Source: a virus. From it: a stretch of DNA of 22,516 nt. The stretch is from the IMG/VR virus record IMGVR_UViG_3300025128_000378, positions 1-22,516 of that record; one strand, 5' to 3'. The notes under the pieces are model-generated. The model searched no databases, was not told the origin of the DNA, and saw only the letters and a list, made by a program, of their open reading frames with translations. The translations under genes were made by a program, and so were the position numbers. Shown in pieces: positions 285 to 2,488 of the stretch; position 1 is the first letter of the stretch; each line of letters starts with the position of its first letter.

Positions 285-313
285 ATCCTACATTATTTAG
301 GATACATTGTCAA
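285..313 (-). promoter_or_regulatory. Leftward sigma70-like promoter for gene 108-263
   Basis: On the minus strand TTGACA (313-308) is followed by a 17-nt spacer and TAGGAT (290-285); a start near 278 would give a leader of about 15 nt containing AAAGGAG. The element CCCAAAATGAACA (334-322 on the minus strand) lies exactly 8 nt upstream of the -35 box. The -35 is consensus; the -10 matches 4 of 6. Confidence 0.65.
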
Positions 314-321
314 AGGCTCTG

Positions 322-350
322 TGTTCATTTTGGGTCGCCCAAAATGAACA
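322..350. repeat. Perfect 29-bp palindrome, operator-like
   Basis: TGTTCATTTTGGG (322-334), three-base centre TCG, CCCAAAATGAACA (338-350): 13-bp arms with no mismatch. It is placed between two divergent promoters, with its centre (336) about 58 bp from both predicted start sites. That geometry suits a DNA-binding dimer acting on both. It could alternatively work as an RNA hairpin, but it lies upstream of both predicted transcription starts. Confidence 0.75.
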
Positions 351-359
351 GTAAGTCTA

Positions 360-388
360 TTGACTTATCCCACAATATCCATTATCCT
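360..388 (+). promoter_or_regulatory. Rightward sigma70-like promoter
   Basis: TTGACT (360-365), 17-nt spacer, TATCCT (383-388); start expected near 395. The palindrome arm CCCAAAATGAACA (338-350) lies 9 nt upstream of the -35. The transcript would carry a leader of about 170 nt through the 449-521 fold-back into gene 565. Each hexamer is imperfect (5 of 6 and 4 of 6). Confidence 0.5.
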
Positions 389-429
389 TGGACGGTGGCT
401 GGGGTTGGGGCAGGGAGTATATAGGTTAG

Positions 430-461
430 TGTCCATTTTGGGTCGCGGTGTCCATTTTGGG
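430..461. repeat. Tandem TGTCCATTTTGGG repeats
   Basis: Two copies of TGTCCATTTTGGG at 430-442 and 449-461, offset by 19 bp and joined by TCGCGG. A third copy with the same 19-base extension (TGTCCATTTTGGGTCGCGG) occurs at 836-854. They differ by one base from the palindrome arm at 322-334 (C for T at the fourth base). Confidence 0.75.
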
Positions 462-521
462 TTTTCTGGAGAATGTTCCACGAACATTGTAGCAACAATA
501 GTGGTAAACCCAAAATGAACA
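449..521. repeat. 73-nt fold-back with two nested small hairpins
   Basis: The arm 449-464 (TGTCCATTTTGGGTTT) pairs with 506-521 (AAACCCAAAATGAACA) with one mismatch over 16 bp. Inside lie AATGTTC/GAACATT with a 3-nt loop and ATTGT/ACAAT with a 4-nt loop. In RNA from the promoter at 360-388 this would form a structured leader; as DNA it presents two half-sites facing each other. Confidence 0.55.
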
Positions 522-529
522 TAGAACCA

Positions 530-558
530 TTGACAAGTCAACAACGCTAGGATAATCT
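530..558 (+). promoter_or_regulatory. Strong sigma70-like promoter for gene 565
   Basis: TTGACA (530-535), 17-nt spacer, TAATCT (553-558). The -35 is consensus and the spacing ideal. The element CCCAAAATGAACA (509-521) ends 8 nt before the -35, the same distance as at the leftward promoter. The ATG of the gene (565) is only 7 nt after the -10, so initiation would be at or next to the start codon. Confidence 0.7.
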
Positions 559-564
559 GGGATC

Positions 565-756
565 ATGGATAAAAATAGAATAATAAAAAGAACTAACCCT
601 TTCTCTGGTAAATCTGAGATGTTAACACGTGATGAAGCAATGTTACATGATGTAGTTAAACAAGCGGAAGCTATGGGAGAGCATGACAAAATGCAAAAGG
701 CATTAAGTAAGTTTAGTAGGCTTAATCCTAAAGCATATATGACGCTATTAGATTAA
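565..756 (+). CDS. Small hypothetical protein (63 aa) upstream of terminase
   Basis: ATG at 565, stop at 754-756. The protein is soluble-looking: a short basic N-terminus with NPFSG, then a charged helical stretch (about 20-50) and the ending NPKAYMTLLD. It has its own promoter at 530-558, and the message would be leaderless or nearly so; an AGGA at 549-552 is 12 nt from the ATG and is a poor Shine-Dalgarno. It is followed by GC-rich stem-loops at 778-804 and 843-879 that could end its transcript. It holds the place where a small terminase subunit often lies, but at 63 residues it is short for that and no HTH is evident. A small regulator is equally possible. Not recognised. Confidence 0.65.
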   Translation: MDKNRIIKRTNPFSGKSEMLTRDEAMLHDVVKQAEAMGEHDKMQKALSKFSRLNPKAYMTLLD

Positions 757-835: not shown

Positions 836-854
836 TGTCCATTTTGGGTCGCGG
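836..854. repeat. Third long copy of the TGTCCATTTTGGGTCGCGG element
   Basis: Identical over 19 bases to 430-448. On the minus strand it reads CCCAAAATGGACA followed 9 nt later by TTGACT (826-821), the arrangement seen at the rightward promoter 360-388. A suitable -10 is not clear (TATAGG at 15-nt spacing). Confidence 0.7.
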
Positions 855-1021: not shown

Positions 1022-2488
1022 ATGGACTTGAATAAGGTAAATATAGAAAAATTACCTGCAGATGTACGGAAGACCTTCAAAAGACTACAGCTGCTCCATG
1101 CACAAAAAAAGATACAGAACAAAGCTAAGAGTGACTTTCTATCTTTTGTAAAATGCATGTGGCCAGATTTTGTAGAGGGGTCCCACCACAGGCACATCGC
1201 AGATAAATTTAATAAATTAGCCACGGGCAAAATAAATCGTCTGATTGTTAATATGCCACCAAGACATACTAAATCAGAATTTGCATCTTATCTTTTGCCA
1301 GCGTGGATGGTGGGCCGTAATCCAAAATTAAAGATTATTCAGGCAACGCACACAGGAGAACTGGCTGTGCGGTTCGGTAGAAAAGCAAAACATCTGATTG
1401 ACTCAGACGACTATAAAAAAATTTTTCAAACAACACTACAAGAAGACTCGAAAGCAGCTGGTCGTTGGGAGACGGCACAAGGCGGTGAATACTTTGCTGC
1501 TGGTGTTGGTGGAGCAATCACGGGCCGTGGTGCGGACTTATTGATTATTGACGACCCACACTCGGAGCAAGATGCGTTGTCACCTACAGCGTTAGAGTCA
1601 GCATACGAATGGTATACATCAGGACCACGACAAAGACTTCAACCAGGCGGTAAGATTGTCTTGGTAATGACAAGATGGTCGACCAAAGATTTAACAGCTA
1701 AGTTAGTTGCTAACCAGAAAGAACCAAAGTCTGATCAGTGGCACGTGGTCGAGTTTCCGGCGATCATGGAACACGGACCAGTGTGGCCAGAATATTGGAA
1801 CCAGGAAGAATTAGAAAAGGTCAAAGCTTCATTGCCCGTTGGTAAATGGAATGCACAGTGGATGCAGTCGCCAACGTCTGAGGAAGGTGCGATCTTGAAA
1901 CGTGAATGGTGGAACGTGTACGATAAAGAAACTATACCACCTCTACATCACGTCATACAATCTTACGATACAGCGTTTTTAAAAAAAGAAACTGCGGATT
2001 ATTCTGCAATCACAACGTGGGGTATATTCTATCCAGACGAAGATAGTCCAGCTAATTTACTATTATTAGACGCTGTTAAAGGTAGATACGAGTTTCCAGA
2101 ACTAAGACGACTAGCGTTACAGCAGTATGATTATTGGAAGCCTGAGTCTGTAATCGTTGAAGCAAAAGCATCAGGACTACCACTAACCTACGAGCTTAGG
2201 CAGATGGACATCCCAGTTATTAACTTTACACCTAGTAAAGGAAATGATAAACATGCTAGAGTCAATGCTGTTGCACCTCTTTTTGAGTCTGGTATGATAT
2301 GGGCACCAGATCAAAAATTTGCAGAGGAGGTGATCGAGGAGTGTGCTGCATTCCCCAACGGTGATCACGACGACCTTGTGGACTCTACAACACAAGCTAT
2401 CATGAGATTCAGGCAAGGCGGATTAATTCAACACCCTGAAGACTATATCAACGAAAAAAAAGACCCTAGACCGAGGACTTATTATTAA
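1022..2488 (+). CDS. terL: Terminase large subunit (packaging ATPase/nuclease)
   Basis: 488 residues, full length for the family. It drives DNA into the prohead through the portal and cuts the concatemer. The ATPase half has a variant Walker A at about 79-85 (PPRHTKS), Walker B ADLLIIDD (171-178) followed by PHSEQDA, and the coupling motif VLVMTRWS (213-220). The nuclease half is RNase H-like: D316 in QSYDTAF, E380 in VIVEAKASG, and the acidic cluster DHDD (448-451). The pattern fits the phage large-terminase family with a psiM2-type C-terminal domain (from memory). It has no clear Shine-Dalgarno; possibly leaderless or nearly so. Its stop overlaps the next ATG by one base (TAATG). No small subunit is recognised beside it. 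All catalytic positions appear intact. Confidence 0.96.
   Translation: MDLNKVNIEKLPADVRKTFKRLQLLHAQKKIQNKAKSDFLSFVKCMWPDFVEGSHHRHIADKFNKLATGKINRLIVNMPPRHTKSEFASYLLPAWMVGRNPKLKIIQATHTGELAVRFGRKAKHLIDSDDYKKIFQTTLQEDSKAAGRWETAQGGEYFAAGVGGAITGRGADLLIIDDPHSEQDALSPTALESAYEWYTSGPRQRLQPGGKIVLVMTRWSTKDLTAKLVANQKEPKSDQWHVVEFPAIMEHGPVWPEYWNQEELEKVKASLPVGKWNAQWMQSPTSEEGAILKREWWNVYDKETIPPLHHVIQSYDTAFLKKETADYSAITTWGIFYPDEDSPANLLLLDAVKGRYEFPELRRLALQQYDYWKPESVIVEAKASGLPLTYELRQMDIPVINFTPSKGNDKHARVNAVAPLFESGMIWAPDQKFAEEVIEECAAFPNGDHDDLVDSTTQAIMRFRQGGLIQHPEDYINEKKDPRPRTYY

Follow-up and report, generated by a model that had tools for sequence, protein, structure and literature searches.

Promoters of a marine phage carry an element that seems to belong to a SAR11-specific regulator

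The promoters that precede the terminase gene of a marine phage contain a short DNA element that recurs at a nearly constant distance from the -35 box, and the same element stands in promoters of the same geometry at the gene of a regulator of SAR11 bacteria. SAR11 bacteria are among the most abundant in the ocean; to our knowledge they have very few regulators, and gene control in SAR11 and its phages is mostly unknown. Comparison of phage and host DNA makes it fairly probable that the phage promoters carry operators of an autoregulated, SAR11-specific factor with two winged-helix-turn-helix (wHTH) domains, most likely for activation. The element seems to belong to this SAR11-only regulator, which probably helps to switch on phage genes. 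If this reading is true, sequence comparison would have supplied SAR11 with an operator, with a promoter rule and with a candidate protein, and a widespread marine phage group would be tied to a SAR11 operator.

The window, meaning the whole stretch of DNA that was analysed (22.5 kb; 22,516 nt), comes from a marine phage that is kin to pelagiphages HTVC027P and HTVC023P. Its terminase large subunit (TerL) is 71-72% identical to those of HTVC027P and 023Pt_psg01 and 60% identical to that of HTVC023P, and the cluster of elements lies immediately upstream of the TerL gene. Relatives have small genes similar to the window's 63-aa gene upstream of TerL (gp39 in HTVC027P), and one close relative (L035) reaches about 7.4 kb further to the left, with the terminase small subunit included. 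The sequence CCCAAAATGRACA occurs in the window in six copies at one mismatch or fewer, all within 322-848, and the full form of the element is ACCCAWWWTGRACA. The features of this region are as follows, with "gap" denoting the distance between the element and the -35 box.

285 to 313, minus strand: leftward sigma70-like promoter (TTGACA 313-308, N17, TAGGAT 290-285), facing a 51-aa open reading frame at 263-108
322 to 335, minus strand: element copy 1, ACCCAAAATGAACA (13-mer 334-322), belonging to the leftward promoter at gap 8
338 to 350, plus strand: element copy 2, at gap 9 to TTGACT
360 to 388, plus strand: rightward sigma70-like promoter (TTGACT 360-365, N17, TATCCT 383-388), with no open reading frame directly downstream
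430 to 443, minus strand: element copy 3, ACCCAAAATGGACA (13-mer 430-442), with no -35 at 8-10 nt
449 to 462, minus strand: element copy 4 (13-mer 449-461), in tandem, 19 bp from copy 3, with no -35 of its own
508 to 521, plus strand: element copy 5 (13-mer 509-521), 43 bp before the ATG at 565, gap 8
530 to 558, plus strand: rightward promoter 3 (TTGACA 530-535, N17, TAATCT 553-558)
565 to 756, plus strand: gene for a 63-aa protein, downstream of element copy 5
778 to 804, no strand: perfect 12-bp GC-rich inverted repeat around a 3-nt loop, adjoining copy 6 and possibly a terminator
836 to 849, minus strand: element copy 6 (13-mer 836-848), with TTGACT 827-822 at gap 9 and a weak -10, beside a GC hairpin
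1022 to 2488, plus strand: TerL gene, which assigns the phage to the HTVC023P/HTVC027P family

The original prediction described three of these promoters, between 285 and 558, as having the element at an almost fixed distance from the -35, and every coordinate, gap and hexamer in that description is correct. It missed a fourth unit of element plus TTGAC, that of the copy at 836. Four copies therefore have TTGAC at 8-9 nt (those at 322 and 836 on the minus strand, and at 338 and 509 on the plus strand), and the combined pattern CCCAAAATGRACA-N8-9-TTGAC occurs four times in the window versus not once in 100 dinucleotide shuffles; the original observation is confirmed and reaches further than first described. 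Between the divergent promoters, copies 1 and 2 are the arms of a perfect 13-bp inverted repeat, separated by 3 bp, and the copies at 430, 449 and 836 have one A replaced by G (CCCAAAATGGACA). In promoter 3, only 6 nt separate the -10 from the ATG of the 63-aa gene, a leaderless geometry.

The same region has further features that recur in the family. A conserved non-coding leader with GGACGGTGGCTGGGG lies downstream of the 338-388 promoter (about 390-500 in the window, 2425-2560 in L024); it is kept in about ten relatives, has two inverted element copies within it, and is a candidate small RNA, with zero Rfam matches in the window and three relatives. A second palindrome, AGGATWATCCT, covers the spacer and the -10 (TAGGAT / ATCCTA) in many family promoters, with or without the element (L024 at 2365-2440, L013, L034, L021, and HTVC027P, L007, at 4626 and 5176), and could represent either a further operator or a form of the -10 peculiar to this family. 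GC-rich hairpins of the CGCCCCTTCGGGGCG type adjoin many element copies (784-798 and 852-866 in the window, and also in L025, L040 and L142). Because these hairpins are directly beside the copies, terminator-like and promoter units are stacked.

The spacing is largely maintained in related phages. A scan of viral contigs in which the gap was free to vary between 7 and 12 matched 37 contigs, and the gap was exactly 9 in 16 of 27 sites after near-identical sites were collapsed (P = 7e-7). Scans that did not require a -35 returned further sites together with many apparent chance matches in unrelated contigs, and counts were therefore limited to 62 loci with common neighbouring genes. These loci hold 71 non-redundant sites, of which 30 have a -35 (a hexamer matching at 5/6 or better) at gap 8, 9 or 10 (5, 20 and 5 cases, respectively). 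Every other gap accounts for three cases or fewer, except gap 40, which mostly reflects 31 + 9 in tandem copies. Two of the phages (L040 and L044) have the perfect consensus TTGACA-N17-TATAAT, and on long phage contigs the sites form one local cluster rather than being spread through the genome. The outcome that the original prediction named as a refutation, relatives with the 13-mer but not its distance to a -35, is seen in a minority. This minority consists of tandem or paired copies with no -35, such as those at 430 and 449 in the window and pairs 57 bp apart in other phages, and of a smaller phage set with the -35 at gap 18-19, about one helical turn further off. The tandem copies are 15, 19-20 or 31 bp apart.

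The element is also found in bacterial genomes. One genome from each of 84,980 bacterial and archaeal species was scanned for the element followed after 8-10 nt by TTGAC, and 21 places matched. Seven of them are in SAR11 single-cell genomes, in each of which the element lies 9 bp before TTTGAC; the flanks of the others look like coding sequence, and these were taken as chance matches. Six of the seven SAR11 places are upstream of an operon for an OpuAC-type glycine betaine transporter, on contigs of up to 468 kb, and the seventh (L191/L280) is in front of a different transport-like gene. Other SAR11 genomes, the presumed HTCC1062 among them, conserve the core TTTGAC promoter of the OpuAC operon but do not have the element, which argues that the operator has been gained or lost by lineage.

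A much larger group of host sites emerged from 247 SAR11-family genomes, in which the relaxed element ACCCAWWWTGRACA accounts for 150 sites among the matches listed, with clearly fewer matches (as read by eye) in a reversed-pattern control. For 87 of these 150 listed sites, the start codon of one and the same kind of protein lies 11-82 bp downstream; this protein is about 310-380 aa long and has two wHTH domains. A set of matches (L260-L274) was dropped as a coding coincidence, being conserved coding sequence inside parA; the parA gene of many SAR11 genomes contains the relaxed element in this way and is a trap for motif counts. Possible further host targets, with the element 40-60 bp before the start codon, include a large lipoprotein-like gene and a binding protein of the tripartite-transporter type (L279 at 345, L298 at 1984, L229 at 1501 and L275 at 2099).

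The dual wHTH protein is the recurrent neighbour of the SAR11 sites. The exact site is present at 62 of 93 strong homologues from a profile search (among the matches listed), and in other homologues the corresponding position holds a copy that differs at one or two bases. Of 289 genomes sampled from the class, two yielded the regulator, both of them SAR11 (G039 and G047). One genome (G070), presumably HTCC1062, has the regulator at C1:1188902-1189840 with two tandem operators. Pfam and NCBIfam have no curated model for the whole protein, and no NCBIfam model scores above its cut-off; the matches are limited to short wHTH domains, with the TrmB and HTH_DeoR domain models passing in some members, and PDB matches are weak and of the wHTH type. 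Literature searches with the 13-mer in both orientations returned unrelated papers only, and neither Pfam nor NCBIfam names the protein specifically; both results agree with the initial statement that no described regulator has this site.

Two observations on related proteins count against the reading favoured here. The element is absent upstream of a 343-349 aa branch of the regulator family; what looked like a changed operator in front of these paralogues turned out to belong to the coding region of the gene before them. In addition, some transporter sites adjoin the gene of a 158-aa SAR11 protein (L189 3159-3635, with homologues in L231-L236), whose single wHTH resembles the first of the two domains in the dual regulator. 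This protein was initially considered as the binder but was rejected, because one transporter site (L182) does not have it nearby and because close homologues are present in genomes with no exact sites.

Phage and host correspond closely at the gene that faces the regulator. The product of this gene is 60-90 aa long and hydrophobic at the C-terminus, and the promoter consists of the element, 9 bp, TTGnnn, some 17 bp, a TTTAAT-like -10, 6 bp and ATG. Candidates were chosen from sites with two mismatches or fewer, with A or T allowed at the last position, and an open small frame is present in 33 of 37 candidates. With the position of TTG left free, it falls at gap 9 in 19 of these 33 non-redundant promoters and at gap 10 in three; the ATG, which the selection required within 38-49 bp, follows the element by 43-45 bp in 32 of the 33. 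Window site 509 has the same layout (element end 521, TTGACA, N17, TAATCT, 6 nt, ATG 565), and its 43 bp from element to ATG agree with the host promoters. The same 14-mer and spacing are found at phage promoters and at the host regulator locus. The original suggestion of a DNA-binding protein at a fixed distance from RNA polymerase gains support, with relatives mostly at 9 nt and host promoters of the same geometry. In many genomes the element is repeated 32 bp further upstream, at 11-16 bp from the start codon of the regulator, which suggests activation of the facing gene combined with feedback on the regulator. In one branch (L204-L220), the copy near the facing gene is 63-76 bp from the ATG, with no clear -35 at gap 9.

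The best reading of these data is activation of the phage promoters by the host factor. In phages of the HTVC023P/HTVC027P family, putative operators 8-10 bp upstream of a sigma70-type -35 near the terminase reproduce the host's own arrangement at the gene opposite the regulator. These promoters would be read by host RNA polymerase, which the host factor, sitting between about -57 and -44 on one helix face, would most likely help to recruit in a class I-type activation, so that phage genes would be tuned to the host state sensed by the regulator. The sequences themselves show the element, how it is spaced, how often it recurs, its position at the regulator gene of the host and the common geometry; we infer both the binding of the regulator to the element and the activation that would follow. 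Contact with RNA polymerase, and so activation, is favoured by the constant distance on one helical face, by the -35 being left intact downstream of the site, and by the weak host -35. At the several phage promoters close to the consensus, the activator is perhaps dispensable. The signal may be osmolyte or nutrient state, to judge from the transporter target. A broader proposition, on which we find ourselves evenly divided, is that the SAR11-only autoregulated dual winged-helix family has a promoter class of its own, element-9-TTG-17--10, with leaderless transcripts in the host, and that this class was taken over by an abundant pelagiphage family, whose expression would then read the host state sensed by the regulator.

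The host regulator could instead repress the phage promoters, either holding genes off in some host states (lysis deferral) or keeping them low until it is titrated. Copies 11-35 bp before the regulator's own start codon are placed where repression is the usual outcome, several phage promoters match the consensus and would fire unaided, and in the CtrA case one phage was repressed while two were activated (PMC9437464). However, a site at about -57 to -44 is clear of the -35 and -10, simple occlusion hardly explains a conserved 9-bp spacing, and the weak -35 boxes of the host facing gene (TTGTGT, TTGTTC) fit an activator, and we consider repression unlikely. Still less probable is the regulator proposed originally, one encoded by the phage, which would be unrelated to the host protein and would make the host likeness secondary. 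The window is a fragment without the early region and most phage proteins are unnamed, which leaves room for such a gene, but the same element and spacing mark the regulator gene on host chromosomes, and the element precedes the host transporter on long contigs as well. In addition, neither the phage database nor the fetched phage loci, most of them fragments but three of them contigs of 50-59 kb, yielded a homologue of the regulator.

The copies might also be chiefly decoys, titrating the host regulator and thereby altering host expression, as could be imagined for the phage region with up to nine copies (L025) and for tandem or paired copies with no -35. We give this very little weight, as a decoy needs no promoter and a large share of the family sites keeps a single constant distance to a -35. 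Finally, it is hardly credible that the pattern is a coincidence, or an inherited repeated intergenic block without regulatory meaning. Copies within one phage can share longer flanks (inverted repeats of 29 and 37 nt), and some host matches, such as those inside parA, do arise by chance; between phages, however, the flanks differ while the element and its distance stay, and relatives show a peak at gap 9 rather than random drift in spacing, a geometry that host promoters repeat.

Activation by the host regulator would apply to some members of the phage family. The exact site is absent from the whole genome of HTVC027P, where one-mismatch matches fall within genes, and from the parts read of HTVC023P and 023Pt_psg01. 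Only part of the family therefore uses the element, and control by the host factor is not universal in it. The hosts of the site-bearing phages are predicted from TerL identity, and a search for isolates using the promoter DNA gave no relevant match. In a transcriptome of HTVC027P in HTCC1062, proVWX expression is reported to be lower (PMC12753301); because neither HTVC027P nor the proX promoter of the presumed HTCC1062 has the site, this result does not bear on the model.

Co-option of host regulators by phages already has precedents in CtrA, Spo0A and LexA. Bacillus phage phi29, with its Spo0A sites, and temperate phages under LexA control, both described in the CtrA study (PMC9437464), likewise involve a host regulator, but there the factor suspends the lytic cycle or couples it to DNA damage, whereas the position of the site in the window phage suggests activation. 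The relative HTVC027P has zero annotated integrases. Among phage-encoded activators, P2 Ogr and P4 Delta act at late promoters through a TGT-N12-ACA site. The likeness is an activator site centred near -55 with the sigma factor unchanged; the window copies differ in having no TGT 12 bp before ACA, the 18-mers that end at the element's ACA starting with GGC, GGT, GTA or CGC. The boxes of lambda CII and T4 MotA overlap or replace the -35, whereas the window element is 8-10 bp upstream of an intact TTGACW. At the OpuAC/proX-type promoters of SAR11, the element again stands 9 bp before TTTGAC, though only some SAR11 genomes have it. A close parallel is provided by phages of Alphaproteobacteria that likewise have host transcription factor sites, those of CtrA, in their promoters (lytic deferment), as shown by binding and expression assays (PMC9437464). 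The regulator family and the site are different: CCCAWWWTGRACA has no TTAA half-sites, and thus no TTAA-N7-TTAA of the CtrA type. In the window phage, moreover, the geometry of the host promoter is matched to the base.
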